Shown one piece after another: positions 39,879-63,933 of a stretch of 64,000 nucleotides of DNA. Below the pieces are notes generated by a model. That model saw only the letters and a list, made by a program, of their open reading frames with translations, searched no databases and had not been told where the DNA came from. Both the position numbers and the translations under genes were made by a program. Position 1 is the stretch's first letter. Each line of letters opens with the position of its first letter. Source of the stretch: Thelephora terrestris (lineage: Eukaryota > Basidiomycota > Agaricomycetes > Thelephorales > Thelephoraceae); the NCBI GenBank assembly GCA_015956445.1, contig WIUZ02000019.1, positions 558,001-622,000 on the forward strand, written 5' to 3'.

Positions 39879-42800
39879 CTAGAACTTGACAATAACAACT
39901 TGAGAAGAGTTTCTGAGCCTCAGAGTTGAAGCATTGTAGAGCCAATCTACCTCATCTGCAGATGATCTCCAATTGGGGTACAGCCACAACCTGTGTTTTC
40001 CTTCTGGATCCTTTATCCATCCCTCTTGCAAAGCAGACTGTGCAACTGGCCAACCACCTCCAGGTATCCCAAAGTTCCCACCTGCTGAATCATGGCGATA
40101 AAGCTTGCAGTCATCTTTTTTGTGTGGTCTATGAAGGCAGTACTCTTTCCCCAAAGGTTCTTTATCCTGTCCAAGGATCTCCCCAGTATGAATATGGTAA
40201 ACACAAAGATTATAGTCATTGTGCCTGAGGACTGCGGCTGTGTCTTTGACAATGAATGTTGTGAAATTAGGTTCATTGCTGTGATCCTCTTGTCCCACAA
40301 TCCTTGCAAAAAAGCTAGTGTAGGATACCAGAGTTTTCTTCCAAAGGCTGTCTTTCTGGTTTGCCCTTCTGCTGTTAACAATCCCATCCACTACCCCCTC
40401 CTCTGTGAGCAGCCATGCCACAACTGTTTCTGGACCCTTTACTAGGAGAACCTTGCCAGTAAGAACCATTGCCAGTATTTTTAGGCCTGTATCAATGAAC
40501 TGGCAAGTGAAGGGGTTTTGAGAATGTAGGTTTGTGATTGTGATAGTGCTCTCATGCTGGTGTGCAGTTGCAATGTAGGTTCCAGAGAGAGAAAAGGCAT
40601 CTAATTGTTGACTTTGGGTACCAGTGACTGACCCTGGAGGAAGAGATGTAGGGGAATAATCCAAGTGGAAGATATGAAGGAGGGAGCCACTATTGCCCAA
40701 GATGGATGATGAGGTTGGAGAGAATTGAAATGTCAATCCACTTTGTTTCAACTTCTTCCACTGAGTGTAGTGACCAGAAGTATATCTCCAGATAATGAAG
40801 CAGTCTCTAGTAGAAGCTACAAAGAGACTCCCATCAGGGGAAAAGTGGCAGCGCATGAAGCCAACAATTGTTTCTTGCAATAGCACCTTTGAGTTGTGAA
40901 TGTCCAGTATGAGAAGTTTGTTGCCCCCACTGCCTTTCCCAGTGGCGGAAATTCGATTGGTGGAAGGAGAAAAAACCTCAAGTGAATGGCTAGACTGGAA
41001 GGTAGATGGTTCCACCTTGACAAGGGTAGAGCCAACCTCAAAGATGTTGACTGTTGATATCCCAGCAAATATATCCCTACTCATTGCCATCATCCTGAAT
41101 GACTCATTATGGGCCCAAATTTGTACATGCAATGCTGGTTGGACTGGACTGGATGATTGTATTGCACTTGAGGACACTTTATATATGTGCACAGCCTGTG
41201 TGGCTGATACCTGCAATAGTATAGCAATTTTCTCTCCATTCAGTGACCATGCAAGCTGCAGACAATCACCAGGGACCCCAAAGTCAATTGTTTTAACCAC
41301 TCCACCAGTTTGGACATCCCAGATGATAATGGCAGTATTGGAACAACCTGCCAGAAAGCATGCATCTGGTGAATAGGCAAGACCTTGTCTAAATCTGGTG
41401 GCACCTTCAGGTAACTTGAAGGTGGAAAGAAGTTTGAGGGCAAGTGCATCCCTGATTTCTACAGCTTTCTCAGAGACTATAGCAACAACCTGACCACATG
41501 GTGACCAAGTGGATGATAGATGGAAGGAGTGGCTGGTGGAGACAGAAGCTATACTTGGCTGCCAGGAGTCTGGAACCCCTGTCACCACTCTTGGTGAAGG
41601 ATGGGGCCTTCGAGTATAGTAAAGCTTTCGCACAGTTGATGAAAGAGGAGATAGTTCTAAGGCAGAGTGGTAGATATGGGTTGCAGAAACATGGATGACA
41701 TCAAAAAAGCTGGTTGCAAATTGGAAGTAGTCTCTTGCAGTGTTGAGAAGCTGATAATCTTTGGCAACCTAAGCCATGGTGCACATTAGTATTACAAGCT
41801 TAGGTTTGAAAATTTTGGACAAACCTTTTGCAACCAATCCATCAAGGTTTCTAATGCAGCAACAGCCACCTTTGCAGAGTTGAGGACACTAAGCACTTCT
41901 AACCAGGCTAGAAACCTCTCCTGCAGGAAGGTTTGAAGAGCTGAAACAATGGCTGAGATATCATCCCTTGCTTCACTGAGGTGACTGTGCCAGAATTTGC
42001 AGGCGTACTGAAGTGCAACACTGAGCTGACTATCAACTCGTGCCTCTAGGTCTTTAACCTCTGAGTTCAAGGCATAGTCTGGGAGTGACAGAGGGTCCTG
42101 CTGTAAACTGATGTTCATCAGTTCAAGACAGCTCAACACTATCTTCAGGTGGCCAGTTCTGGGGGAGATATAGAACCTTTCATTGGGACAGCGAAGGGGA
42201 TCAGTGATGAAGTCAGGAAATGACTTATGGAATGGGAGCACTGGAGAGTCAAGATCTTCAGGGAGTTTGAGGAGAGATTGTATCAACTGAAGTAGGTCCA
42301 TGACCTCTTGGCTCCCTAGATTGACAAGGATAGCAATGGCTGAAGGTGGAAGAGGATCCATAGCCAGAACAACCATGCCAACCACAGAGCGCACTGTTTC
42401 ATCATCCTCACTACTCATCTCATCAAAAGCACCTTGGAAACATGAGAGGTAAAGGGAATCAAGGGTTGTGGTTGGCTGGATTTTAGCCTTTCCCTCATGG
42501 ACAGTGCTCCCTGGGGCCTTGATGATGACATCCAGTTGCTTGACGGGTGAGGCAAAGCCGTGGTCCAAAAACTTCAGAGTTGCCACAGCATATACAAAAA
42601 GACCAGCTGCCCTCTCAGACAGTAGATCAAGGTGGTTATCTGTTGGCCAATCATCCTGCTTGATGTTACGCCTTTTTGTAATGGCAGATAACCCATGTTT
42701 CAGGAAAAGTCGGATGTCTGTGTTGATAATTTTTGGCTCTACGTCGTGGAGGACAAAGACATCTGTCAATGGCCTTAGGAGTCCAAGTCGGAAACCAGAC

Positions 42801-43050
42801 TGAATTCGAGGTTCCGGTCGACCTGTAATGAAGAATTTGATGGTGGGTATCTCTCCAACCAATCTACCCATGACAGAGAGGATGGCAGACTGTGGATCAT
42901 TGTCTACACACTCATCCAATGCATCAATAACAACAACTGTTGATATTATAGCTGAACTGAGTGGTTCGGCGATCAATGTCTTCATCTGGTTGTAAAGTGA
43001 CTCGAATCCAATATCTGGGTTTGATTGAAGGAGAGGGACAAGAATGGATC
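38950..43050. other. CpG-depleted compositional block
   Basis: Across roughly 4.1 kb CpG is rare and TpG/CpA frequent, while the DNA on both sides is CpG-rich. The block covers the 3' spacer, the whole WD40 part and most of the NACHT part of the NLR gene. The right edge is sharp, at about 43030-43080, inside the NACHT coding exon. Judged by eye, not counted. Confidence 0.6.
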
Positions 43051-44740
43051 GGAATTGGGGGTATTTTTGAGCGAGTTGGAAGGCAATGGTGGGGAAGATG
43101 TAGTGAAGGCTGCGGCGATCGTTGAAGTCGCGCGAACAGAAGAAGGATGCTCCCAGTCTTCCATCGGCAAAAATGTACTCCGCGATTGTCTGAGCGATCG
43201 TTGACTTTCCAGTCCCAGCGAGCCCGTTCAACCAGTAAACGGGGGGCATGTCGAAGTCACCAGACCACAACTCTATCTCGTCTAGGATAGTCGACCGGGT
43301 TCCTTTGAGACAGCCCCGCCGGTCACCGTGTCGAAAATCCGCCCCGCTGGCACGACGACAGCTGTTAAGCACAGAGAATTCAGCTGTTGGGTCGTTAGTA
43401 TTTATCGATAGAAAACGGGGATTCGTCTGACCAGCATCCTGCAAAAAAACGAGAATCAGAAATCGAGCTTCTTTCAAACTGGGGTTCCTGGACTCACAAT
43501 CAATTTGCAGCTTTGCTTGAATATCGCATTCTGCTGCGCCAACTACACGCCTCATTTTAGTGGACTTCCTTGCATGGTGATATTATTACCGACCTGGTAC
43601 TCAGCTATGACATCTCTGAGGTCATCTGCGAGATCGCACGCGTCACTGGTGTCCCCTCCCTTCTCTGTACTGTATCGTTCGGATAGAAGCTGCAGCCTGT
43701 CACTGATCCCTTCGAAGGCTCTGAGTTGGGTTGAGCATAGACGATCATTTGAGCAGGGTGGCAGATACGCACTCAAACAAAGCCCTCTGTCGCTTGCCCT
43801 CGTCATCATTCCCTGCGACATTCCCCTTTACGTCAAGAAGGTTCAATCGTGTAAGGACAGAGTCGATCCTGGGTTGCGGAGATGTCTGCAAACCTGTTAT
43901 TGGGTGCCATTGATTGCGAAAAAACCGTCATACCTGACGCAATTTCAAAACCGCATCGAAGGATGCCTTGAGATTGCCGGTGATTTGCTGAGTGTGGGAA
44001 TCAGAGATAGGAGACAGGAACTTACGGTCAAATGGGCAATCTGGTTGTGGATCGACTGTTGTTGTGTCACCTATTTCACCAGGTCAATGGTGTTCAACAT
44101 CTACAGCGACTAGCACCGACCTGATACATCAAGATAGCTCTCCTGAGTTCTTCCACGAGTCCGACGACTTTTCCCAAATCGCGCTTCCTATCGAGGAGAC
44201 GAGAAACCTTTCCCTTTTCTGCCAGAGCTGCCGATCGCTTTCCAATATCTTCCAAACACCTATGCATGTTCACGTTAGAGTGGGCAAGAAATGACAAACG
44301 CGACACAAACCTGGCGAGTTCTGATCGTCTCTGAATCTCCTCGCTATCATCATCCGGATTCACCTTCGCCAAGGTCGCCATCAACTTCTCCAACCATGGG
44401 ACAAGATCTTTGAGCTGGTCTTTGACGTCGGCATATTCCTGGTTGAAAATCGTCAATGGAATCTGCGGGGATCGCCTGATACCGACGTACTTCATAGAGC
44501 TTGATAAGAGCGCTGATCCCTCCCAAGCACGACTTTAGCGGGGGAAACGCATCGGAGGATTCCTTCGCGAGGTCCAGGATCGTCTTGACAACGTCGACGA
44601 ACCGTTGTCTTTTGGCTGAGAGTCGTCGGTGAGCCCAAAAAAAAGTTGCAACGGAGGCCGGAAATCAATATCTTACAGCCACTTGATTCACTTGGTGTGT
44701 CTCCAGTCGATGGGGGCCGTTTTCGAAGAATCGCAGACAT
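39879..44740 (-). CDS. STAND/NLR protein: helical N-terminus, NACHT NTPase, WD40 repeats
   Basis: Fungal NLR-like sensor, apparently intact. ATG at 44740: MSAILRKRPPSTGDTPSESS, joined to KRQRFVDVVKTILDLAKESS and FPPLKSCLGGISALIKLYE, the usual helical start of this family. Several small exons follow (DVKDQLKDLVPWLEKLMATL, CLEDIGKRSAALAEKG, LVEELRRAILMYQ, a 45-nt exon VTQQQSIHNQIAHLT, FEGISDRLQLLSERY). The NACHT exon (about 41820-43440) carries VYWLNGLAGTGKSTIAQTI (Walker A), VVVIDALDEC (Walker B) and FFITGRPEPRI. After one intron VAKDYQLLNTARDYFQF leads into about 600 residues of WD40-type sequence (LSSTWSPCGQVVAIVSEKAV, GLAYSPDACFLAGCSNTAII, CHFSPDGSLFVASTRDCFII) ending at 39879. Such proteins are thought to act in non-self recognition and cell death. 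Most of the gene lies in CpG-poor DNA. Confidence 0.9.
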
Positions 44741-48587: not shown

Positions 48588-50928
48588 TCAAAGTCCATAA
48601 CGCTCCCTTTCCGTGGGCACTATCAGATTCGGGAAATTGGAACCCTCCGGACGACCATCCGTTGCAAATACAAGGGAAGCAAACAGGTCCGGTTCGAACG
48701 CCGGGATATTTTCTCGAAAATCGGCGTATGCCTTCTCGATGGTCATTTTCCAAGGTCCCAACGGTTCGTTCTCCGAGCCAGCGTGTAACCCGATACGTGC
48801 TTCAATCGTGTCCAACGCCGTTTTCCAAGACATCTAATGACATAGAGTAACTCGGTAAGGATCCAACCTCATTCGGAGGAACAACCAGCCGTGAGACACG
48901 CACTCCGGTTAAAACATCAAAGTGTGAGTACTGTTCGATGCGAACTTCGAGAGAGAGGTTGCAAAGTTTCCCCAACGCCAGGTCGTAGAGACCGTTCATA
49001 GGTGTGCTCAAGGCCGGCTCCTCTTGACTCATAAGATGACACAAGGCAGCCAGATGTGCCAGACACATGATACAGCAAGACCAAATCATCCAAACACCGC
49101 AGGTATCCCCTATACTGATGAACTGTTCCAGGTTTTCCATAAGGGCGCTGGAGAATGTGTCCAGGGCGTGAACAAGATGGAGGCATGATTTTCTTTGGTC
49201 ACTCGTTTTCTCTTTGTCTGAAGATGTCGAGAGTCAGTTACAACATGAAGTCGCAACATTCGAGTAAGTCTTACGGTCGACAGGAGAATTCAGTATGTGG
49301 ATCGCGTCTCTGACCAACAGAATACTTTGAGTCCGCATCGTCAAGGGGCATATCTTGAAGAGGCATGGGTACACACGCTAGACCAGACCGCTAAATAGGT
49401 TTCGATCCCTACGACTGGACAATAATGAACGGACCTCACCTGGAGGTCAAGCCTGAACTCTTTCTCAATTCCCGCAGTCTTCACAGGTGCAGGTCCGCCC
49501 ATCGTCAAGTAAAAGTAATTTTCGAGAAAAATCGCCTGAGAGAGGACAGAGGCCTCCTCACGAACTTCCTCCGAGAACTCGGCGGGGGGCCCGTACTCAG
49601 GAAGAAACTGGAGTTTTGCTTTCTCGATGATCTTGCATGCCTTCGAAAAATATAGCTGAGCAGCCGCATTGAATCCTAAAATAACGGCCGAGTGCGCGAC
49701 TCGCACTAGCGCTTGGGCTTTGGCCCTCTCTTGATTAGTTTGGTTGAGCTCTACGAGGGATTCCCATGACCTTTGGACATAACTTGCTTCCAAGCGGACC
49801 ATGTAAGGGGTTTGCTTCGGAGCACATAGATACATTCCCATCACCTGTGTGCTATCCACGAAGTTGCGGTGAAGTACAGAATTGGAGGTGTCGCCACGGA
49901 GGATAGCTGCTTGTTTCTCCTGTGTAAAATAGAGTCCTAGTTTATGCATTTGACATAGTCCCTTCAAGCGGCTGCCAAAAACCTTGCCTTCAGTCCCTCT
50001 GGCAACGGAGACCGGAGAAAACACGTACAAGATCATATCCATGTCATTTAAGGCGACGCTGGAAACCTGTGCATGTTCGGGGTGGATGTCTAATAATGGC
50101 ATTTGGAGGGGGCGAGGAATGGTCTGGAAACGGGTGGATGGAAGCGTTGTGAGCGGGGATACGACGGGAGATGGGGGGTACTCCGTAGCGCCAGAGGCCC
50201 TCTTTACGACTGAGCGATCTGCTGAATATTTCCACAAAAGTCGTTCTGGCGCCGTCAATGGCCGCTCATGGAGGTCAAATGGTGGGGGGAGGGAGGTACC
50301 GGGATCACCGGAATCTGACAAAGCGAGGGCGAGGACGTCTCTTGGTGGGGATCTTGATGGCCTGAGAGTAACATTGTTGTCGGAGCGGGATCCGTCGTAC
50401 GTGCAGGCTGCGCCCCTATCCTTCTTCACGCAGGTTGCACATGGTAGCTCGGCGTCGCATTTCTGGGGGTAGAATTAAACCCTCGCGTATGCTAGGTTCG
50501 GCTCGAGACGTGCCGTCACTCACACTTTTCTTCTGTCTGATCGGAGGAGAATCCCATCAGATCAAGCTTTAATCGAGGGCTCACAACAACTCACCGACAA
50601 GGAATACACGCCTGATTCATTCCTAAGACATTTCCAGCACCCCTCTTCTTGACCGGGGCGTAACGGCAGTCTCGGATTTCGAGAGCCGTGCAGCGAGCGC
50701 AACCTCGAGTACCGGGGACGCATTTCTACGTGGTGAAAACCCATTCGCAGGAAAGGTGGTGAGAGACGATTTTCGATGCGAAGGGAAATGAAGTTCACCA
50801 CTTTCAGAGTCCTGTACGAATATAGGCACTGGGAGTCAGTCTTTGGCCGGCGCAAGTAAATGCTACAATGTGCATAGGGACTGTACGCACCTGCACGCGA
50901 TACAAGCCCCTCGAGATTTAGTGGACAT
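48588..50928 (-). CDS. Dual Zn2Cys6 transcription factor, array copy 1 (intact)
   Basis: Nine exons read by hand: 50891-50928, 50799-50811, 50595-50725, 50524-50536, 50029-50462, 49440-49971, 49275-49353, 48868-49217, 48588-48833. They sum to 1,836 nt, 611 residues plus stop. Cluster 1 is CIACRTLKVKCVPG followed by CARC and ALEIRDC (C-x2-C-x6-C-x6-C-x2-C-x7-C). A short linker with KKRGAGN leads to cluster 2, CIPCRQKKSKCDAE, CATC and KKDRGAAC (C-x2-C-x6-C-x5-C-x2-C-x8-C). A Pro/Ser-rich stretch follows, then a helical regulatory region (GLCQMHKLGLYFTQEKQAAI, SYVQRSWESLVELNQTNQE, AAQLYFSKACKIIEKAKLQ, WSCCIMCLAHLAALCHLMS) of the fungal-TF middle-homology kind, and a conserved C-terminal exon (MSWKTALDTIEARIGL ... 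FPNLIVPTERERYGL). Expected nuclear DNA-binding regulator; target unknown. Confidence 0.9.
50524..50536 (-). other. 13-nt microexon, cluster 2, array copy 1
   Basis: ACAGAAGAAAAGT between a ATCAG acceptor and a GTGAGT donor; supplies the end of Arg plus QKKS in CIPCR-QKKS-KC. Flanking introns 58 and 61 nt. Confidence 0.85.
50799..50811 (-). other. 13-nt microexon, cluster 1, array copy 1
   Basis: GACTCTGAAAGTG between a TACAG acceptor and a GTGAAC donor. It completes the Arg codon after Cys2 and adds TLKV, so that CIACR-TLKV-KC has the exact six-residue Zn2Cys6 spacing. Flanking introns are 79 and 73 nt. Confidence 0.85.
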
Positions 50929-52558
50929 CGCGTTGGAAAAAGATGTGGGGTGAGTAGATGCATAGGGACAACAAGCCTCGAGCGTCACACTTGTCACCAG
51001 TCACCCTGCATGTAGCCGCTCTATCGTCGGAACCCGTTCGCCGATGCATGTCTGCTTACTCCTTCACGCTTAGCCTCGACCCTTGACTCCTTGGTCAAGT
51101 CAACAAAAAGTGCCTCCTCTCCACTTGAGTCTCTTGATCTACTGAACCACGACAAAAGTTTGGGTCGGGAACACCCACGTTGAAGTACCCACAGACTTTC
51201 CTAGATCTCAGAGTCCAGCTGTGTTCAGGTCCATAGCTAGCGCTTCACAACGCTTCCGCCTCCGCACCAAGCGCCCATACTCATGCCCATCAAGAACGAC
51301 CACCCCATTTGCAATTCGGAGGACTTCACGATCTCGAAATTTGCAAATATGCGCAATTCACCTGACCCTTGGACCTTGAATCAGCTTGCGTCTAATGCTG
51401 CCGTGAGCTGAGTCGAGGCCTTGTGATTTACACAATGTGATGATGTCCGGTTCCCGTTGGGCAGTTCCTGCAAACACCTGTTACAACTCCGACAAGCATC
51501 TTACACAACGACATCCCCTAGAAGTTGAGCACGTTCAACATGTTCGTACGCAGCGCAAGCTTTGCGATGCCTTAGGTACTCGGCGGTTGTCGCTGCATGT
51601 CATCCATCGGCTGGCAGCCCCGATAAAGACCCTGTTGCCTCGCCCAACCTTCCCTCCAAAACTCCGCGGAGTTGATCCCGGCTAAGGTTCTACTGCAGCG
51701 CTTGCTGGGTACCCGCTCCCCGTTCCTAAAACTTGAGGCGGATAACATTGTAGAGGGCCACGAATCAACGAGTCCGCTCGAGCTCTGATCACGTTATCCC
51801 CCGACACCACCTTGAGTTGATGGAAACAAGTAGGTACCACGGGCTGCCATTTTCCTCACAAGATTGGCTCCAGAAGTCCAATATTACGTTGGCCTGACAC
51901 CACGACGCGCTCGACGAGAGCCCCAAATATATCTGCCCCTCTATCGTTCGGGTTTCTAGAATTCCCAGTCCTTCAGTGTATCCCAGGAGTTCCGTGGGGG
52001 GGCAGCGCCTATCTCTACCTATCTTCTTTATCCCTATTCGGTTCTCTTTGCGGCTTCTACTTACCGCTTGATGGTGCGAAAAGTCCCTCATATTAAATAA
52101 TTGGCGATCAGTCAATGGATTTACTCTTAGGATCCAACAAGACATCAGACGAATCCTACTCCGAATATGCAAAGAAATTTCTTGATCAAACGGCCACTCT
52201 GATGATGCAGCACACGACCCGCGCTTTTCCGACAGTAAATGAACCATAAGCAGGGAACGGGTCGCAAAATGCCCCCCTCCGCCACATGCGACGAGAGAAT
52301 GTCGGAGTTATTTCGCCGAAACTTGCAACCGGGGGAACTCCGCCTTCACACACACCTGCGTCGTAATCACCGGATTTTCCAGGTTCTCCCACTGGAGAGA
52401 GAGGACTTTCCGGTGGCCATAGCCCTCCATAGCCTCCTCAACCTTTCCGGCATCATCCTCCAGGCAGCTAACCGCGTTACTTAATATCCAAATACACAAA
52501 ATAATACTGTGCTGTAACTTAATCGAAAAAACCTCGCATAGACATAAACACACCCACG
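50929..52558. other. Intergenic between array copies 1 and 2
   Basis: 1.6 kb without a supportable gene. Part of it (about 51540-51720) resembles sequence to the right of the array at about 62920-63110, sharing a GGCTGGCAGCCCC core and order of neighbouring words. The 3' flank of copy 2 has an A/T-rich TGTAACTTAATCG word at 52512-52524, also found in altered form (TGTAACCTAACCG) 3' of copy 3. Confidence 0.45.
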
Positions 52559-54895
52559 TCAAAGCCCATAAGGCTCCCTCTCCTTTGGTTCTACCAAATT
52601 CGGATAATTTGAACCCTCCGAACGACCATCCGTTGCCAGTACCAGAGAAACAAACGAGTTCGGTTCGTACTCTGGGAGGTTTTTTCGAAGATTGAAGTAT
52701 GCCCCCTCGATGACGACTTTCCAACGTCGCAACGATCCGTTCTCCGTGCCCAAGTACGACCCAAGACGTGCGTCGATGGTGTCCAACGCCGCTTTCCAAG
52801 CCATCTGGTTATAATGGAGAGGCACGGTAAGCGCATACCCCATTCGGAGGAACGAGACATGATGAGATACGCACCCCGGTTAACACATCGAGGTTTGAGT
52901 ACTCTTCGATGCGGACTTCAAGAGAGAGTTTGCCGAGTTTGTCCAACGTTCGATCATAGAGGTCGTTCATGGATGCGCTCAAGGCTAGGACCGTCTGGCT
53001 GATGAAATGACACAAGGCAGCGAGGTGTGCCAGGCATATGACGCAGCAAGACCAGACCATCCAAACACCGCAGGTATCGCCTAAGCTGATGAACTGCCGT
53101 AGGTTTTCCATAAGGTCGCTGGAGTATCTGTCTAGGGCGCAAACCAAACGGATGCACGATTCTTGTTGGTCACTCGCGGTCTCTGCCTCTGAAGACGGTG
53201 TTGATCAGTCGAGACACGGAGTCACAACATTCGGGACAGCCTCACGGTCAACCGGAGAATTCAGAACGTGGATCGCGTCTCTGACAAACAGAATACTCTG
53301 AGTCCGCATCGTCAAAGGGCATATCTTGAAGAGGTAAGGGTACACTCGCTAAACCAGAGCATCAAATCGGTTTCAAGCTCATCACCGGGAAAATGATGTA
53401 TAATTCTCACCTGGAGGTCGGACCTGAACGCCCTCACAAGTCTCACAGTCTTTACCGGCGGAGATCCACCCGACGTCAGGTAAAAATAATTCTCGAGGAA
53501 AATCGCTTGGGAGAGGACGGAGGCATCCTCACGAACTTGGTCCGGGAACCCATGAGGGTGTCCGTGTTCCGGAAAAAACTGGAGTTGTTGTTTCTCGATG
53601 ATCTTGCACGCCTTCAGGAAATACAGCTGAGCGGCTGCGTTCATCCGCAACAGAATGTAAGTATGGGCCACTAGCATTAACGCTCGAGCCTTGGCTCTCT
53701 CTTGATTGGTTTGCATGAGCTGAACGAGGGATTCCCAAGCCCTCTGGAGATATCTCGCTTGCAATTGGACCATGGCAGGCAATTCCTCTGGAGCAGAAAA
53801 ATACATTCCCATCATCTGAAGGCCATCCCCCAAGCTTTGAAGGACCAGGGAACTGGAGTCGCCGCGGAGAATGGCTGCTTGTTTATCCTGTGTAAGATAG
53901 ACCCCTAGCTTATTCAATTGACATAGCGACTTCAAACGGCTGCAATAATCATAGGGTCAGTTCCTCTGGCCCTATTTGGAAACATTCAAGACTAGGAAAA
54001 ACCACGTACAAACCCATCTCTAGGTCGTTTCCGGAAGCCCATGAAACTTGCTTACGTTCCGGTGGGATGATCGATAACGGTAGTGCAAGGGGGCGGGGAA
54101 TTGTCAGGAAACGGATGGATGGAAGAATTGTGAGAGAGGATGCGGTTGGACGCGGGGCGCAGTCCGTGGCGGCACGAACTTTCGGTACGACTGGGGCAAC
54201 TGACGGGAGCACCGGCTTCGTTTTATCAAGCAGACAGGGTGAGGGACTCCGCTCAAGGCGATGTGGCGGCGTTGGCGATCGTTCATGGGGATTGGGGGAT
54301 AGGGGGTGAGAGGAACTGGATTCAGTGAAATTGCAAGGAACGATGAATTGAGTTCGCTTCTTGTACGTGCACGCCGCGCCCCTGTTGCCTTTCAGGCATG
54401 GCGTGCATGGTTGCTTGGCGTCGCATTTCTGTGGATGTTGTTAACCCCCGCGTCTAACAGGTTTGAATAGGGTATGTCGACGCTCACGTTTTTCTTCTGC
54501 CTGGCCGCAAGAGAGTTCCATCAGACCGAGCTCCTCTTGGGCTCACTGTAACTCACCGACAAGGGATACACGCCCCTCCCTTTCCTAGAATATTCCCGGT
54601 TCCTCTCTTCTTCACAGGGGCGTAACGGCATTCTTTGATGTTGAAAGCCGTGCATCGAGCGCAGCGCGGAATGCCCGGGATACACGCCTTCGAAGCGGTG
54701 AGCCCATCCGTAGGAAAGGCGGTGAGAGACGGTTTTCAAAGCAAAGAAAAATGAGGTTCACCACTTTCCGAGTCCTGTACGAACGCCGGTACCGGGAGTC
54801 AATGTTTCGGACAAGCCCTCGCCAACGAATGACGTGGTGTGTAGGAGCTGTACGCACCTGCACGCCATACAGGCCCCTTGAGATTTAGTGGTCAT
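52559..54895 (-). CDS. Dual Zn2Cys6 transcription factor, array copy 2 (appears intact)
   Basis: Same nine-exon plan as copy 1. ATG at 54895 (MTTKSQGACMACR). Cluster 1 is CMACRTRKVACIPG, CARC, AFNIKEC; note Ala in place of the Lys just before Cys3. Cluster 2 is CIPCRQKKNKCDAK, CTPC, KGNRGAAC. The next part reads SSSHPLSPNPHERSPTPPH and PSVAPVVPKVRAATD, then by a GTACGT-type intron RLKSLCQLNKLGVYLTQDKQ, YLQRAWESLVQLMQTNQERA and AQLYFLKACKIIEKQQLQF. The late exons give FISLGDTCGVWMVWSCCVIC, GVRISSCLVPPNG and MAWKAALDTIDARLGSYLG, ending EPYGL at 52559. Reading frames agree across the joins examined, so this copy looks functional. It probably arose with copy 1 by tandem duplication. Confidence 0.87.
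54488..54500 (-). other. 13-nt microexon, cluster 2, array copy 2
   Basis: GCAGAAGAAAAAC between GCCAG and GTGAGC; supplies R-QKKN of CIPCRQKKNKC. Confidence 0.85.
54762..54774 (-). other. 13-nt microexon, cluster 1, array copy 2
   Basis: GACTCGGAAAGTG between TACAG and GTGAAC; supplies R-TRKV of CMACRTRKVAC. The length and splice borders match copy 1 while the sequence differs at one base. Confidence 0.85.
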
Positions 54896-56841
54896 CGCAC
54901 TGGAAAAGGAGGTGATCACAGAAGTGGGGCGGACGCATAGGGTAGCGGGTCACAAACTGCTCAACGCACACGAGACATGACCGGCGCTCGACGCTCTCAC
55001 GGTGTGTCCCGTTTTGGTCAGTCGAGGCGGTGTTGTGCCGGCCAATGGCTAGCGACACAATGCCAATGGCTGTGCCAAATGTCGACAAATCGCCTTTCGG
55101 GGGTTTCCGTTCTCACGCCTTCGCCAAGGGGAGATGCGCGATATCAGTTCCCGGAATTCTACTTTGTACCTTTCTCCGAGAAGCCGAAACCGTCCTTCCC
55201 ATCAGGTGTTCCCATTGGTTCGGCAAAGTTGAGAGGTGCAACCGGGTAAGACCGAAAGCTAGCAGCCATTTCGCCTTGTGGCTATAACCAGTGGTATCGC
55301 TTAGCTCTGGCTGTAAGCTTTGGGTTTTCGCCATTAGCCGTCCAACACTGAGTCGAGGTCACTCCCTGTCACTCCCGACCGTTCCTGCATTCTCGGCTGA
55401 TCCCTTCAACAGTAACGTAACTTAAACATTCCATCGGACGCGGGAGCATACTGCAAACCAAACCAGCAAAGCATGCCTCCTCCCCGTCCAAGTCTTGGCT
55501 ACACCCTCAATCGATCTCATGGATCAACGCGAAGCTCGTTTTTGAAAAATACGCCCAGGATCTGCTGCCTGCACGTGAAAGTTGGTCTGCTCAGCTTGCC
55601 GCGTTGGGATGGCGACAGACTGGAGAGTGCATCCCTCAACCGGGATCGGAGGCCCGCCTTGCGTTCTGCGTCCAACGGCAAATCACCGTTATCTCTCCGT
55701 CAAGTATGTTCCGGCGGATCCTCGTTTCCTCGCATCTCCGACATTGACACTGAGCAGGGAACAAACGTCCACAGTCTTTACAATTGGGCGGTGGCTGTTG
55801 CATCTGGACGCTATCATCACCTCTGAGCCCTTTTTTAGATCCCATCATGAGGGTTTGCAAAACCTTCTCCTCGGCCCCGTCCTGTCACACAGCCGTCGTA
55901 AACACTTGAAGAGTTGAACTCTCGGTTCGAAGAGCTCTACTGGTGAGCAGTTTACTACGGGTTTACTCGGTTTACTGAGCGCGCGTAAGCCCATCATCCC
56001 GTTCACGATTCACCAGGATTCACCAGGATTCACGCCACGGACACCATCTTGACATTTCCAATCAAAACTCAGTTGATTCTTCTAGCCGAGTCCAAGTCCA
56101 GACCATCGTGATCTGCAAAGTTCCTTTGGAAAGTTCCATACGACTCGTGGACACTGGTCGTTGGCCAAGCGAGGCACCAGCCCCAACCCCGACCGACATC
56201 TTACGAAGTCATCGCCTCGGATTCAATATTCTCGCCAGAGCGCAAGCCTAGCGACACTCGGTAGTTATTGCTCTATATCAGCCGCTGGATGGCAGCTCCC
56301 TGCGGACTTATCTCTACAGAGTGGGGGAATCATCGGAGACTTGACTAGATCGCAGCTCCGCGGTCTCAACGGACCCCCGAAGCTCTTCCACGAAAAAAGC
56401 GCTCTCGTGGAATTCCAAGGCCAACATCAGCTTCATGCGCAGATCTTCAACCAATGAGGTCATATATCCGCGGGGCAAAGATCGCATCTGCGATCTCAAA
56501 GGCGGAAAATTCACCTCATCCACGAGATACAGATGATTCGAATACTCAAAACCCTACCACGAGCGGTATGAGCTTTGGAAGTCCCGAGTGCGGCTGATCT
56601 GCGGACATATACGGCCAGGTCATGGATATGTACAACCGCGAAGTTGTTGGGTTAGAGGATCCTTACCTCTGCGGGCGAAAGCTAGGTACGAACTCGGAAA
56701 TGCTGGCTCGCAGTTGATATGCAGACACATAAGCTGAATCACGAGGATATACTATGCGCTAAATGAGCATGTACTGTAACCTAACCGAACGGCACAACAA
56801 ACGTTTGGAAAGGAACCCTGCTTACGTGGTCTCGTCTCTCG
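54896..56841. other. Intergenic between array copies 2 and 3
   Basis: 1.9 kb. On the plus strand at 55510-55740 one frame reads coherently (LVFEKYAQDLLPARESWSAQ, AALGWRQTGECIPQPGSEAR) and another continues with HRYLSVKYVPADPRFLASP; this may be a gene fragment of unknown family. A short direct repeat (CACCAGGATT twice, preceded by CACGATT) lies at 56005-56033. No complete gene is supported. Confidence 0.4.
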
Positions 56842-59184
56842 TCAAAGTCCATAACGCTCCCTCTCCTCGGGCACCGCCAAGTTCGGAAATTCTGTCTCCC
56901 CCGAACGGCCATCCATTGCAAACACCAGGGAAGCAAACAGGTCTGGTTCAAACCCTGGGAGATTTTCTCGAAGATCGGCATATGCTTTCTCGATGTCCAG
57001 CTTCCAACGTCCCAACGATCCGTCCTCTGTGTCCAATTGCAATTCGAGACGTGCGTCAATGGTGTCTAGCGCCATCTTCCAGGATGTCTGATCACACAGA
57101 GGTAACTTGGTGAGCTTCCTACCTCATTCGTAGGAACAAATCGCTGAGATACGCACCCCAGTTAAAATATCGAAGTGCGTGTACATTTCAATCTGAACTT
57201 TGCGAGATAGGTTGCCAAGTTTTTCCAACGTCAGGTCGTAGAGACCATTCATGGATGTGCTCGTTGCCGTGGCTGTCTGACTCATGAGATGGCACAGGGC
57301 AGCTAGATGCGCCAGACACATGACGCAGCAAGTCCAGATCGTCTCGACGCCACTGGCATCCCCCATGCTGATGAAGCACTGTAAGTTTCTTACAAGGTCA
57401 CTGGAGAATCCATCCAGGGCATGAACCAGGCGGAGGCATGAGTCTTGTCGGTCACCCGTGTTGTCTGCCTCTGAAGACGGCGGAATCAGCCGCAACCCAG
57501 ATTCGCAACATTAGGGTCAGCCTTACGTCCAACGGTGCCCATAGCATGGACTGCATCTCTGACCAGCAGGATACTTTGAGTCCGCATGGTCAAAGGGCAT
57601 ATCTCGAGGAGGCATGGGTACACTCGCTAAATTAGACCACCCAAATTAATTTTCAGTACTACAAAAAATGACGAATCGACCTTACCAGGAGATCGAACCT
57701 AAACTCTCTCTCGATTCTCGCCGTCTTTGCAGGCGCAGATCCACCCAAAGTCAAGTACAGAAGATTTTCGAGATAAATCACCTGAGAGAGGACAGATGCC
57801 TCCTCGCGAACTTGTTCCGAGAACTCGGCGGGGGGTTCGTGCTCTGGAAGAAATCGGAGCTTTGCTTTCTCGATGATCTTGCACGCTTTCAGAAAATACA
57901 GCTGAGCGCTGGTGCTCAACCGCAAAATAACGAAACCGTGCGCGACCAGCACTAGCGCTTGGACTTTCTCTCTCTCTCGGTTAGTTCCGTTGAGTTGGAT
58001 GAGGGATTCCCAAGCTATCTGGAGATATTTCGCTTGCAAGCGAACCCTGGCAGGCGATTCCCCTGGACCACAAAAATGCATTCCCATCACCTGCGTGCCA
58101 TCCACAAAGTGGCGATGAACCACAGAATTGGAAGTGTCGCCACGGAGAACGGCATCTTGTCTCTCCTTTGTGAAATAGAGCCCCAGTTTGTTCAATCTAC
58201 ACAGCGCGTTTAATCGGCTGCAGAAAATCAGGCCTTTGAGTCCCGCCAACTCCATGAAACCTGCTGAGGCCGGGGAGAGACACGTACATTGATAGATCCA
58301 GGTCGTTTTCTGCGACCCCGGAAAGCTGCATACATTCGGGTGGAATGACCGACAACGGCGTTCGAAAGGGGCGTGGGATGGTCTGGAAGTGAATGGATGG
58401 AAGGACTGTGAACGGGGAAGGGGTGGAACGTGCCGGGCACACGGAGGCGGCAGGAGGTTTCTCGCCGGCTGGGGCATCTGATAAGGGAACTGGCACCACT
58501 TTATCAAGTACAAGGAGCGAACGTCCCCGCTCGAGTTGCTCTGGCGGCATCGATGATCTCTTTGGGAGATCAACGTGTAGGGAGCGGGAAGAACGAGATT
58601 CGCTGGAATCGGGCGAAGCGACGAGCAGGCCATTGCTGGTGAAACGAAATCCCTCGTACGTGCACGTGGCGATCCTATCCTTTTTCACGCATGTTGTGCA
58701 TGGTTGTTTAGCGTCACATTTCTGTGGATGGAATTAACTTGGGGTTTCCTAGGCTCAGCTCGAGGCACGTCGTCACTCACGTTTTTCTTCAGCCTGACAC
58801 ATGAGGATCCCATCAGTTCAGTGAGCCCTTGAGATCACCGCTCGCAACAACTCACCGACAAGGGATACATGCCTCACGCATTCGTAAAGTATTTCCGATA
58901 CCCCTCTTCTTCACCGTGGTGTAACCGCAATCTTGAATGCCCAAAGCTTTGCATCTATCGCAACGTGGAGTGCCCGGGATGCATTTCTTCGAGGTAGAGC
59001 CGATACGCAGGGAAGAAGATGAGACACATGCTCTTAGCGAGGGGAAATACAATTTACCACTCTCCGAGCCCTGGGCGGATATCAGTGCCAGGAGTCGATC
59101 TTTCAGGCACGCCAACGAATGACGGTATGTAGAGATATGTGCGCACCGACATGCCGTGCAAGCCCCTCGAGTTTTAGTGGACAT
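56842..59184 (-). CDS. Dual Zn2Cys6 transcription factor, array copy 3 (altered C-terminus)
   Basis: ATG at 59184 (MSTKTRGACTACR). Cluster 1: CTACRARRVKCIPG, CDRC, ALGIQDC. Cluster 2: CIPCRLKKNKCDAK, CTTC, KKDRIATC. Then Ser/Pro-rich sequence (SLHVDLPKRSSMPPEQLERG), an intron with a GTACGT donor, RLNALCRLNKLGLYFTKERQ, YLQIAWESLIQLNGTNRE, AQLYFLKACKIIEKAKLRFL. Exon 8 reads ISMGDASGVETIWTCCVMCL and then GVRISAICSYE followed at once by an in-frame TGA just before the expected donor: this copy has two bases fewer here than copies 1 and 2. The last exon (TSWKMALDTIDARLELQL ... EERERYGL, to 56842) is still open and conserved, so it is either bypassed or reached through another donor, for example the GT just after the ILTG codons. 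Confidence 0.82.
58781..58793 (-). other. 13-nt microexon, cluster 2, array copy 3
   Basis: GCTGAAGAAAAAC between GTCAG and GTGAGT; supplies R-LKKN of CIPCRLKKNKC. Confidence 0.85.
59058..59070 (-). other. 13-nt microexon, cluster 1, array copy 3
   Basis: GGCTCGGAGAGTG between CCCAG and GTAAAT; supplies R-ARRV of CTACRARRVKC. The most diverged of the four cluster 1 microexons, yet the length and both splice sites are kept. Confidence 0.83.
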
Positions 59185-59748
59185 TGCTTTGGAAGAGGTG
59201 ACCGCAGATACTGAATGAAGGCATGAGGACAACAAGCCTCGGCGCTCAGCGCCACGCCACACTTACGGCACAGGGCGTCTCGTGTTTATACGGTCACAGC
59301 CACTCGATGACCGTTCAGTCAGAACTACACCCTCCGCCTTCGGATCTCAAATTTGAGGGCCAGCACGTCCGTGTATAATATCGCACGATAATTATCGTCG
59401 AAGACAAGCCATATTCTGGTTGGAATCTATGCTTTCGTGTGGGATTTTCGCAACATTTATGTACGTGGCGTGCAGTAACTGATGCGAGATCTCGAACCAG
59501 GGGTCGACACCTCACTCCAGACGATGCGGATTTACCCCATCAATGGAATTCGAACGTGTCTACAAGCAGGGCGGTTCCACCTCTAAGCCTATGCACCGTA
59601 ATTTCAGCGCCTCCATCACCTCTCCGCGCGCAATGTGCTTCGCCGCAGACAGTGCAACCAAGTCATGGATCCACACGTCCAACCACGACGGCCTATCTAA
59701 TCGGACAAGTGTCGGTCAATGACTACACTCGCGTGTCCTCACCTCCCA
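59185..59748. other. Intergenic between array copies 3 and 4
   Basis: 564 bases, the shortest gap of the array, with the promoter of copy 3 and the 3' flank of copy 4. Contains an AT-rich patch with a short inverted word (CGATAATTATCG, 59388-59399). No gene seen. Confidence 0.4.
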
Positions 59749-62098
59749 TCAAATCCCAAAGCGCTCCCTTTCTGTGGGCACTATCAAATTCGGGAAATTT
59801 GAACCGTCCGAACGACCATCCGTTGCAAACACCAGGGAAACGAATTGGTCTGGTTTGAACTCTGGGAGATTTTCTCGAAAATCGGCGTATGCCTTCCCGA
59901 TGATCGTTTTACAATGTCCCAGAAGTCCGTTTTCTGTGTCCAATTGCATCCTGAGGCGCGCTTCAATGGTGTCCAACGCCGTTTTCCAAGAAGTCTGATG
60001 CCATCAGGTAACTCAGTAAGCGTCTCACCTCGTTCGGGGGAAACAAATGGTGGTGAGACACGCACCCCAGTCAAAAGATCGAAGGCTGAATACTTTTCGA
60101 TAGGGACTTCGAGAGAGAGGTTTCCAAGTTTGTCCAACGTTAGGTCATAGAGGCCATTCATGGATGCGCTCAAGGCTAGGACCGTCTGGCTGATGAAATG
60201 GCACAAGGAAGCGAGGTGTGCCAAGCATATGATACAGCAAGTCCACACCACCCAGACACCGCAGGTGTCCCCCATATTGATGAACTGCTGAAGGCTTTCC
60301 ATAAGGTCGCTGGAGAATATGTCCAGGGCGTAGGCCAGATGGATGCACGATCTTTGTCGGTCACTCACGTTCTCTGCCTCTGAAGACGGTGGTATTAGTC
60401 GAGACACGGGGTCACATCATTCGAAACATCCTTACGGTAGACAGGAGAATTCAGGGCATGGATCGCGTCTCTGACCAACAGAATGCTTTGAGTCCGCATG
60501 GTCAAGGGGCATATCTCGAAGAGGCATGGGTACACACGCTAAGCCAATCCAAAAAGTCGGTTTCGAGCCCTACACGGAAAAGGGATGAACGATTCTCACC
60601 TGGAGGTCGAGCCTAAACTCCCTCTCAATTCTCGTCGTCTTCACAGGGGCAGGTGCACCCATCGTCAAGTAAAAGTAATTTTCGAGATAAATCGCTTGAG
60701 AGAGGACCGAGGCATCTTCACGAACTTGCTCCGAGAACTCGACGGGGATTCCGTATTCTGGAAGAAACCGCAGTTTCGCTTTCTCGATGATCTTGCACGC
60801 CTTTGCGAGATATAGCTGAGCGCCCGCGCTTAATCCTAAGATAGCGGCCGAGTGCGCGACTCGCACTAGCGCTTGGGCCTTCTCTCTCTCTCGATTAGAT
60901 TGGCTGAGATGAATGAGGGATTCCCAAGCCCTCTGGACGTATCTCGCTTGCAACCGAATCATGGCAGGGGTTTGCTCCGGAGCACAAAAATACATTCCCA
61001 TCACCTGTATTCCCTCCACGAGGTTACTATGGACGACGGAATTTGAGGTGTCGCCGCGGAGAATAGCATCTTGTTTTTCTCGTGTAAAATAGAGCCCCAG
61101 CCTATGCAACTGATATAGCCCTTCTAGGCGGCTAAGGAAGATCATGCACTTAGTTCCTATGGCTCCGTGAATACTTCGAATACCAGAGAAAACACATACA
61201 AGGTCATATCCAGGTCATTTAAGGCGACGCTGGAAACCTGCATACATTCAGGGGGAATGACCGATGATGGTAACGCAAGGGGACGAGGGATGGTCCGAAA
61301 ATGGAGGGATGGAAGGATTTCGAAAGAGAATACAGTGGGACGTGGGGGACACGCCAAGGCGTTAGGAGCCTCACTTGTGACTGTGGCGTCTGACGAGGCT
61401 TCCCACTCTAGCTGCTTCAGTGGCGGCGACAGTGATTGTCCGTTGATATCAGGGTGTAGAAAGTAGGAGGAGCCAGATTCACTAGAATCGGGTGAAGCGA
61501 AGAGGAGTATTTCTCTTGGTGGGGAGCTCGGGTGCCTGGGAGGGACATCGGCACTGGAGCGAGATCGCTCGTACGTGCATGCCGCGCCCCCGTCCCTTTT
61601 CACACACGCCGTGCAAGGTTCTTTAGCGTCGCATTTCTGGAGGCGGAATCAACCCTTGCGCTTCCCAGGTCCGAGATGGGTTTCCACTCACACTTTTCTT
61701 CTTCCTGGCCGCGAGAGAATTCAATTCAGACGAAGCCCCTCTCGAGATCGCCGGTCACAATAACTCACCGACAAGCGTTACATGCCTCACCCATTCGTAA
61801 GGTGCTCCCAGCTCCTCTCTTCTTCACCGGGACGTAGTAGCAATCGGGGATATCCAGAGCCGTGCATCTTGCACAACGTCGAGTACCCGGGACGCATTTC
61901 TTTATGTGAGAGGCGCGTTGGTAGGAATGGCAGTGAGGGTCAAGTCTTCAACACGAGGGGAAATGAAGCCTACCACTTTCTGATGCCTGTACGAACGTCA
62001 AGCTGGGAGTCAATCTTCCGGAGATCCCGACATCATTGGATATACAGGGGCCGCACACACCTGCACGCCATACAGGCCACCTGAGATTTAGTGGACAT
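59749..62098 (-). CDS. Dual Zn2Cys6 transcription factor, array copy 4 (altered exon 8 end)
   Basis: ATG at 62098 (MSTKSQVACMACR). Cluster 1: CMACRHQKVKCVPG, CARC, ALDIPDC. Cluster 2: CNACRKKKSKCDAK, CTAC, KRDGGAAC. Then SSPPREILLFASPDSSESG, PSLHFRTIPRPLALPSSVIP, an intron with a GTATGT donor, RLEGLYQLHRLGLYFTREKQ, YVQRAWESLIHLSQSNRERE and AQLYLAKACKIIEKAKLRFL. Exon 8 gives GDTCGVWVVWTCCIICLAHL and GVRVSPPFVSPER. This copy has one extra base near the end of exon 8 relative to copies 1 and 2, so the usual donor would shift the last exon (SWKTALDTIEARLRMQ ... IVPTERERFGI, open to 59749) out of frame. A GT after PPF would restore it. Retention of the intron stays open too, with a different C-terminus. 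Confidence 0.82.
61692..61704 (-). other. 13-nt microexon, cluster 2, array copy 4
   Basis: GAAGAAGAAAAGT between GCCAG and GTGAGT; supplies R-KKKS of CNACRKKKSKC. Confidence 0.85.
61974..61986 (-). other. 13-nt microexon, cluster 1, array copy 4
   Basis: GCATCAGAAAGTG between TACAG and GTAGGC; supplies R-HQKV of CMACRHQKVKC. Confidence 0.85.
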
Positions 62099-63879
62099 CG
62101 CGCTGGAAAAGGGGGTAAACAGAAAGGTGGGGTAGTAACATGGAAGTAACAAGCCTCCGAGTGCAAGCGCACGGGGCTCCCATATGACAGATACTTAGTC
62201 TTACTACGACTTAGTCAGTCGAACGCGCCCCGTGTTTTGTGACATTTGTCACCGGTTCACTGGCAGCGGCTGCCTGTGTGTGCGCAGCTATGCCGTACGC
62301 GGTTACGCTGGCTACAAGAAACCCAACGACCGGCACTAAGTGAGAACACAGCGCTTCCTCTCCATACAAATCCCACAAATCACCTCATGGCCGCTGCACC
62401 CTTGATCGGTTGATCCACGTGGGACGATCGTGCTCTCTCCCTCGACTATCTGCAGCCGGACCTTCTTTACTTCCTTCCGCGTCCAAGCCTGGGTAGGGGT
62501 AGGGGGAACATTCGTGCCCGGACGAGTTTCCAGCCATTTCTGTGGGACCCCGGGTCTTACATCGGGAGGGCATCATCACCTATAAGTGGATTCCGATGAC
62601 GCTCACCCCAAACCTTGATAAGGATCTAGCAGAACTTCCCCCTTGCCCTGCCTGGGTGATCCAGGCCAACCGTGGCCAAGTCTTTGCAAATGAAACCCAG
62701 CTGACTGTTTTAGGGTGCATTCAGTGCCGCCGTCAGCCAAACCCTGACGATATAGTTCCGTAATTTGAGCAGTTCCGGTTGGGATCTCAGGATCCGGCAA
62801 CACTATCTCAAGTCCCCCGAATAAGTATGGGCTGTGAGCTTAACTCCGAGTCCGACAGGTTTTTCTTTTGATCTTACTCAATTCTTACCAACGATGTACG
62901 GGCTCTCGCGTCCGTCCAGTATGTCCGTCCGAACAGCCTTCGCGATGCTCAATGATGACTCTCCGTGTCAACCACTGGCTGGCAGCCCCCAACAAAGTCT
63001 TGCCCCATCACCGAACCTTGCCTTGTACACCCCAGAAGGTTGATCGCTGCAAGAGTTTCAACATCCTTGACCCATAATCTCCTCCCCGTTCCGCATACTT
63101 CGAGTTCTAGCTGGGATTTGAGCAAGTACGGGAGATACGTCTCTACTCCCGTGGGCTATATTCACCGCGCGTTCCAAGTCGTCCCACTCGATCTGCTCTA
63201 TGCGCAACGCTGATCTCTACAGACGTTGCGGCCAAGTCATCGATGAGTACACCTAACCGCGAGCACGCTTTGCTTCACTTGGACGAGACCCACCCATTAA
63301 GGGCTGGTATGTGGTCGGTCCGTGGGTGCGTTGACTAAACCACAGATACACGTGTTCCATCATTGGCATTAATTCCGCATCGCAACGGGAATCGTACACA
63401 GCAGCCATCAGCACACCAGATTCTCGAAACAATGGGTAGATGCCCCTTCGTGTGCGGCCACCGAACATGGCGCACACGATTTTCCCGCCATGATATCTAC
63501 CGCTGCTATTTCATCAACAAGGATTCCATCAACAATGGGGCTTTCCAGCGCACGAACCGTCGAGGGGGGCCCCTTCACCATCTCGAGTACCAGGCGGCCC
63601 ATTGTATCAGTAGCCTAATGAACCCTATAGCAACTTCCAACCAAAAGCCTGAGAGGGACGTTGGCGCTGGGGCGGGCTCTCTCATGCGTGCACGCAACGC
63701 CCGATTGGTTGCAGCTGTTTGGCAAGCCGATAGCTCATCTTTGAAAATATTCGCAAACTTCCCTGCTTACGCGTGGAACTCCGCATCACCGACCCAAGCC
63801 TGACGCCTTAGGATGGCAACCTGACCCACATCCCTTATGACCACGTTCTATTCTGCGATCACCGACACGACTGATCGTG
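62099..63879. other. Right flank of the array, no confident gene
   Basis: 1.8 kb. It includes the promoter of array copy 4 and, at about 62920-63110, sequence resembling 51540-51720. A minus-strand stretch at 63253-63610 has two open pieces (RALESPIVDGILVDEIAAVD; ESGVLMAAVYDSRCDAELM) that could be a gene fragment of unknown family; a plus-strand frame overlaps it. Nothing is supported well enough to call. Confidence 0.4.
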
Positions 63880-63933
63880 CCCTCTCCCTATACATGTCCC
63901 TATCCCTACACATTTCCCTCTCCCTACACATGC
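63880..63933 (+). repeat. Imperfect 18-bp tandem repeat, three copies
   Basis: Three units of the form CCCTCTCCCTACACATGT with one to three differences each, followed by CCGGG. A simple-sequence minisatellite, likely of no function. Confidence 0.75.

Follow-up and report, generated by a model that had tools for sequence, protein, structure and literature searches.

In a 64,000-nt stretch of the genome of the basidiomycete Thelephora terrestris (GenBank assembly GCA_015956445.1, contig WIUZ02000019.1, positions 558,001 to 622,000 of the forward strand; hereafter the window), four tandem genes encode predicted Zn2Cys6 regulators in which the DNA-binding unit appears to be doubled, such that one chain would read two half-sites. 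We regard this reading as a whole as probable, though far from certain. Gal4-type factors usually obtain their site specificity from two single-cluster chains acting as a pair. As had been proposed in an earlier reading of the DNA letters (the sequence-only reading), the four paralogs (g1 to g4) lie head to tail, on the minus strand, within positions 48588-62098, with gene lengths of 2341, 2337, 2343, and 2350 bp, respectively, and at the level of the sequence they are real, intact, and conserved.

Two zinc clusters in one reading frame

In each of the four predicted proteins, the C6 motif CX2CX6CX5-16CX2CX6-8C matched exactly twice, at residues 9-37 (cluster 1) and 57-85 (cluster 2), and not one such motif turned up when the residues were shuffled 20,000 times (5,000 per protein). 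The cysteine spacing is C-2-C-6-C-6-C-2-C-7-C in cluster 1 and C-2-C-6-C-5-C-2-C-8-C in cluster 2. The whole proteins matched the Pfam family Zn_clus (PF00172; curated cut-off, 21 bits) along two stretches, with 43.7-52.9 bits. When the clusters of g1, g2, g3, and g4 were scanned alone, all scored above the cut-off, with 41.2, 38.2, 39.3, and 40.5 bits, respectively, for cluster 2, and 28.0, 31.8, 32.4, and 21.9 bits for cluster 1, which in g4 clears it only narrowly. No other DNA-binding family was found above the Pfam cut-off in the four proteins, and both clusters were assigned to PF00172.

A profile built from the four proteins matched Zn2Cys6 DNA-binding domains among solved structures, with expectation values (E) from 0.00027 to 0.018. 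In these alignments, Leu3, Lac9, and Put3 fell on cluster 2 and Gal4 (1d66) and Ppr1 on cluster 1, while other Gal4 chains aligned to either cluster. The agreement of the motif, Pfam, and the gene models in all four copies supports, at the level of the sequence, two complete and conserved clusters in one reading frame, which was the central claim of the sequence-only reading. With their introns, cluster 1 and cluster 2 as located by motif and Pfam occupy, on the minus strand, 50666..50904 and 50403..50608 in g1, 54628..54871 and 54369..54570 in g2, 58927..59160 and 58662..58869 in g3, and 61840..62074 and 61577..61782 in g4, respectively.

The four copies were aligned and spliced by hand to give the gene models, the splicing of which is inferred from the sequence alone. 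All four models contain nine exons and eight GT-AG introns of 55-83 nt at matching positions, with identical phases (2, 0, 2, 0, 2, 0, 1, and 0) and no internal stops. The products of g1 to g4 are 607, 601, 606, and 608 amino acids long, and the identities to g1 are 63% for g2, 63% for g3, and 68% for g4. On the minus strand, g1 (50928-48588) consists of exons 50928-50891, 50811-50799, 50725-50595, 50536-50524, 50462-50029, 49971-49440, 49377-49275, 49217-48904, and 48833-48588, and g2 (54895-52559) of exons 54895-54858, 54774-54762, 54687-54557, 54500-54488, 54428-54010, 53939-53411, 53348-53246, 53188-52875, and 52804-52559. On the same strand, g3 (59184-56842) consists of exons 59184-59147, 59070-59058, 58986-58856, 58793-58781, 58721-58288, 58217-57686, 57626-57527, 57470-57157, and 57087-56842, and g4 (62098-59749) of exons 62098-62061, 61986-61974, 61899-61769, 61704-61692, 61636-61200, 61131-60600, 60538-60436, 60379-60066, and 59994-59749.

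For intron 5, the donor GTGTTT (GTGGTT or GTGTCT in some copies) was rejected because it breaks the frame, whereas the donor GTACGT/GTATGT four bases upstream gives an open frame in all four copies. The intron 8 donor was set as GTGCGT; with a later donor the frame would also stay open in two copies (g1 and g2), though not in the other two, and this border is less certain than those of the cluster exons.

A shared exon and paired predicted 13-nt microexons

Exon 3 (131 nt; on the minus strand, 50725-50595 in g1, 54687-54557 in g2, 58986-58856 in g3, and 61899-61769 in g4) encodes, in frame and in all four models, Cys3-Cys6 of cluster 1, a 19-residue linker, and Cys1-Cys2 of cluster 2. Because this one exon codes parts of both clusters, the clusters are hard to split between two genes. 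The possibility raised with the sequence-only reading, that the first exons belong to a different gene, thus appears unlikely.

Each cluster is cut by two introns, one within the Arg codon that follows Cys2 (phase 2) and the other one codon before Cys3 (phase 0), and in all four genes this intron pair leaves a 13-nt microexon in the Cys2-Cys3 stretch. According to the gene models and the splice-path listing, the cluster 1 microexons lie at 50799..50811 (g1), 54762..54774 (g2), 59058..59070 (g3), and 61974..61986 (g4), and those of cluster 2 at 50524..50536, 54488..54500, 58781..58793, and 61692..61704, respectively, all on the minus strand.

The splice paths were listed for GT-AG introns of at least 40 nt, and middle exons of at most 60 nt, with the range for donors starting 30 nt ahead of the modelled end of the exon; the test selects for a full cluster and hence is no proof of splicing. 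In none of the eight cases (four genes with two clusters each) did a path with a single intron yield a full cluster, and in seven of them the 13-nt microexon was the sole open two-intron path to one. The eighth case is cluster 1 of g1, where three further two-intron paths fit the spacing, which makes the microexon one of four; no such further path exists in the other copies. For cluster 2, open one-intron paths numbered 0, 0, 0, and 1 (g1 to g4), and the cluster 2 microexon also seems to be nearly required for an open frame.

For cluster 1, exon 1 and exon 3 can be joined in an open frame by one intron, without a full cluster, in 2, 3, 9, and 5 ways (g1 to g4). These joins could be taken as a sign that the first-cluster exons are an artefact of hand-splicing or belong to another gene, which we consider very improbable: parts of both clusters sit in exon 3 in all four copies, a 13-nt microexon at the matching place completes cluster 1 in each of them, and this microexon is the sole open two-intron path with a full cluster 1 in g2, g3, and g4.

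In the inferred models, the loss of either microexon destroys its cluster in all four genes, with stops at residues 38-73. Skipping the first microexon leads to a stop at residues 47, 38, 38, and 38 (g1 to g4), and skipping the second to a stop at residue 73 in every copy. In addition, an in-frame ATG (Met53) stands directly before cluster 2 in g1 (50618-50620), g3 (58879-58881), and g4 (61792-61794; all minus strand), where an alternative start would be possible; residue 53 of g2 is Lys. In these three copies, the stops caused by skipping of the first microexon (residues 47, 38, and 38) fall shortly upstream of Met53. These features are consistent with a scheme in which the two-cluster form is only one isoform and the ATG of codon 53 also yields a single-cluster protein, perhaps the ancestral one. 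We consider this scheme unlikely, because g2 has no Met53 and because the constraint on cluster 1 across the four copies taken together favours use of the long form. Still more speculatively, and with low expectation on our part, regulated inclusion of the two microexons could act as a two-bit splice switch that gives the double reader, the cluster-2-only reader started at Met53 (in three of the four copies), or none, through which the paralogs might offer combinatorial site lengths from one locus.

Constraint, proposed DNA reading, and possible origin of the doubled cluster

The constraint on the clusters was estimated from the ratio of the proportions of nonsynonymous and synonymous differences (pN/pS), pooled over the six paralog pairs, with 95% ranges from a bootstrap over codons. 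The pN/pS values were 0.48 (0.31-0.77) for cluster 1, 0.29 (0.16-0.56) for cluster 2, 0.42 (0.36-0.49) for the body, and 0.90 (0.72-1.13) for the Pro/Ser-rich spacer that follows cluster 2. The values for the linker, residues 169-210, exons 6-9, and the whole gene were 0.47, 0.51, 0.27-0.49, and 0.48, respectively, and the whole-gene synonymous divergence (dS) between copies was 0.54-0.68. The value for cluster 1 was the higher one in 903 of 1000 bootstraps, but the ranges overlap and the difference is not significant. These results suggest that the constraint on both clusters is about that on the body, and possibly stronger on cluster 2. They bear out the earlier statement that the second cluster is conserved no less than the first, and it may be conserved better (0.29 versus 0.48, with overlapping ranges). 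The further claim that both clusters are used fared less well: the constraint on cluster 1 equals the gene average (0.48 each), which suggests use but falls short of demonstrating it.

Gal4 places its Cys2-Cys3 stretch in the major groove and reads CGG with Lys18. In the present proteins, this stretch of cluster 2 has the form R-x-K-K-x-K-C-D in all four copies. Cluster 1 likewise retains, in all four, its six cysteines and the Arg that follows Cys2, and the residue corresponding to Lys18 of Gal4 is always Lys or Arg. The linker of 19 residues between the clusters retains the run VKKRG in every copy.

It is possible, though in our view rather doubtful, that cluster 2 alone reads DNA and that cluster 1 is a folded zinc module for protein contacts or a weak helper. 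The invariant basic stretch of cluster 2 would fit such a division, as would its higher Zn_clus scores (38.2-41.2 versus 21.9-32.4 bits) and its lower point estimate of pN/pS. On the other hand, the cysteines and basic residues kept in cluster 1 speak for a DNA-reading role, cluster 1 is closer than cluster 2 to the Gal4 cluster by pairwise score in all four copies, and the pN/pS ranges of the two clusters overlap. On the basis of the basic stretches, the 19-residue linker, and the Pro-rich spacer, a reader of two half-sites in one chain is favoured.

In the working proposed here, the genes would be expressed and spliced as modelled, and each cluster would fold around two zinc ions, giving four per protein. 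Contact with a CGG-like triplet would be made by the basic Cys2-Cys3 stretch of each cluster, and the 19-residue linker would let both clusters reach neighbouring triplets. A single chain would thus read two half-sites without the usual dimer, and a longer composite site would be read if the body dimerises. The suggestion of the sequence-only reading that a covalent pair could bind two half-sites as a monomer is therefore plausible, although the proteins may also dimerise through the body. For the spacer, 18-21 prolines occur in residues 88-215 (128 residues), and the longest proline-free run there is 21-27 residues; judged from this run length alone, a long coiled coil in the spacer would seem less likely. 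Upstream of the genes (4 x 550 nt), the count of pairs of the form CGG-N0-20-CCG was 9, below the mean of 12.6 in shuffles, and thus showed no enrichment of the kind that autoregulation would produce.

Several observations weigh against the double reader. The weakly constrained spacer has a pN/pS range that starts at 0.72, slightly below the upper bound for cluster 1 (0.77). Gal4 carries two adjacent basic positions, one of which is not retained in cluster 1 (L, R, R, and Q in g1 to g4), and in g2 the residue before Cys3 is Ala instead of Lys. Cluster 1 is also nearer to the Gal4 cluster (pairwise scores of 66-89) than to the cluster 2 of any copy (35-48). For the body, no Pfam or NCBIfam family was found above its cut-off in the four proteins, and PF04082 (Fungal_trans, the CeGAL middle homology domain) gave no match up to E 1 in any of them, a result that allows for a diverged form. 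Finally, no relatives were found among 44 pattern matches in viral_contigs or 162 in genome_contigs, collections that are not fungal and whose blanks say little.

The body is conserved among the four paralogs and may resemble the middle homology domain. Below the Pfam cut-off, TPR_8 matched in g2 and ARM_LIN in g4, and NCBIfam gave weak matches, far under the cut-off, each in one of the four members. A structure model of exon 6 from the four copies had a mean predicted local distance difference test score (pLDDT) of 42.3, which is low confidence, and a profile of this exon matched no solved structure up to E 10.

The introns interrupt cluster 1 at codons 13 (phase 2) and 18 (phase 0) and cluster 2 at codons 61 (phase 2) and 66 (phase 0), and both positions are common to the two clusters, to the base, relative to the cysteines. 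For two introns inserted at random into 87 nt, the chance of hitting a given pair of positions is 1 in 3741, a figure that assumes free positions and would fail if these positions are common in the Zn2Cys6 genes of this group. The likeness of the two clusters also exceeds their cysteines, as the observed mean was reached by 1 of 500 shuffles in which the cysteines were fixed. Because both intron positions are shared, the two clusters probably derive from one intron-bearing cluster.

A recent internal duplication was rejected, since the pairwise scores of 35-48 between cluster 1 and cluster 2, compared with 129-170 within each type, indicate that the split is old; by score, the doubling would predate the array. 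The scores against the Gal4 cluster were 71, 89, 66, and 67 for cluster 1 and 66, 70, 60, and 66 for cluster 2 (g1 to g4), and the greater nearness of cluster 1 to Gal4 than to cluster 2 likewise leaves a recent internal duplication without sequence support. The doubled gene may have arisen by internal duplication or by fusion of two genes from one stock that carried these introns, and would then have multiplied into the array.

The array in its window and among known regulators

When the window was compared with itself (blastn, E ≤1e-3, default low-complexity filter), all but one of the 10 matches listed connected g1 to g4, and the 64 kb showed no fifth intact copy at the nucleotide or protein level. 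Of 118 protein-level matches, 23 lay beyond the four gene spans, the best of them with E 0.15. The remaining nucleotide match is a 56-bp segment at 63647-63702 (minus strand, in the orientation of the array), which is 77% identical to g4 exon 5 and aligns to it at and just past the end of cluster 2. It scored 43.7 bits, whereas the best of 100 Markov shuffles of the flanking sequence scored 32.8, and it gave no protein-level match at E 0.5; this segment is perhaps a relic of a fifth copy. An 18-bp tandem repeat of 2.9 copies is located at 63880-63932.

Between g2 (about 52915-53245) and g4 (about 60105-60435), part of exon 8 is 89% and intron 7 is 84% alike, above the likeness elsewhere, as would be seen after gene conversion. 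At four-fold sites in columns 396-535, however, 32 of 46 agreed, compared with 31 of 41 for g1 and g4, which gives conversion no support. The likeness of g1 and g4 also peaks, at 91%, near alignment column 376.

Among 10 other open reading frames (ORFs) scanned in the window, four matched above the Pfam cut-off (NACHT/NPHP3_N, APS kinase, ribonucleotide reductase, and ALG6/ALG8), two had only matches below it (WD40-like and F-box-like), and four had none. In our judgement, this gene content and the many short introns fit a mushroom-forming basidiomycete. The NACHT/NPHP3_N ORF (41795-43582) and the WD40-like ORF (39882-41768; below the cut-offs) are adjacent on the minus strand and could form one NACHT-WD40 gene of the fungal NOD-like receptor (NLR) kind.

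The four proteins resemble Gal4-type Zn2Cys6 (PF00172) regulators in cysteine spacing, in the basic Cys2-Cys3 stretch, and in the N-terminal place of the clusters, but differ from them in having two clusters per chain, a Pro-rich spacer after the clusters, and no PF04082 match. The sequence-only reading had called this layout undescribed, which was too strong, since proteins with two C6 domains, namely CCG_02279, CCM_00582, and PoZCP55, have been reported. Among the literature matches listed, from a search limited by its terms and covering few subscription journals, no family combined adjacent double clusters, symmetric microexons, and a tandem array, and the available portions of PMC8396895, PMC4192604, PMC2447501, and PMC3998117 contained no mention of double clusters. 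The double C6 layout is not categorically new, and represents a variant of the Zn2Cys6 kind, not a new kind.

For CCG_02279 (Tolypocladium) and CCM_00582 (Cordyceps), the accessible part of the source describes two C6 domains each, among DUF3468 proteins, with the spacings C-2-C-6-C-5-C-2-C-6-C and C-2-C-6-C-6-C-2-C-6-C (PMC6471507). They share with the present proteins two C6 domains in one predicted protein. The spacings differ, however, PF11951 (DUF3468) gave no match up to E 1 in any of the four proteins, and that part of PMC6471507 mentions neither an array nor a microexon for them. PoZCP55 of Pleurotus ostreatus, as described in the available text, has two zinc cluster domains together with three septin domains (PMC7295025); it is likewise a basidiomycete protein with two clusters but, by this description, differs in their C-terminal position and in the septin domains. 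In the portion available of PMC10305253, an Alternaria factor is said, second-hand, to carry two Zn2Cys6 domains together with a transmembrane domain.

A microexon that codes part of a Zn2Cys6 cluster is described for Xlr2 of Trichoderma virens, where, according to the accessible text, a glucose-dependent 20-nt microexon carries two cysteines and has to be included for the cluster to form, and in its absence two separate transcripts were seen instead of exon skipping (PMC11121469). As in Xlr2, the clusters of the present proteins would depend on microexon inclusion; by contrast, one cluster is described for Xlr2, and the microexons predicted here are 13 nt long, lie between Cys2 and Cys3, and occur twice per gene. 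Dual-specificity fungal regulators, as far as the available text describes them, carry two DNA-binding domains of different classes in one chain (PMC5415576), whereas both domains of the present proteins belong to one class (PF00172). In P450 genes of Phanerochaete, microexons are reported in nearly one-third (PMC1184071, as available).

With two 13-nt exons per gene, genes of this type may be missed or split by automatic annotation, and because such exons are easily missed, similar genes may sit unnoticed in other fungi. A double-cluster chain present in four paralogs would provide a natural test of whether the length and spacing of a binding site can be set within one protein.

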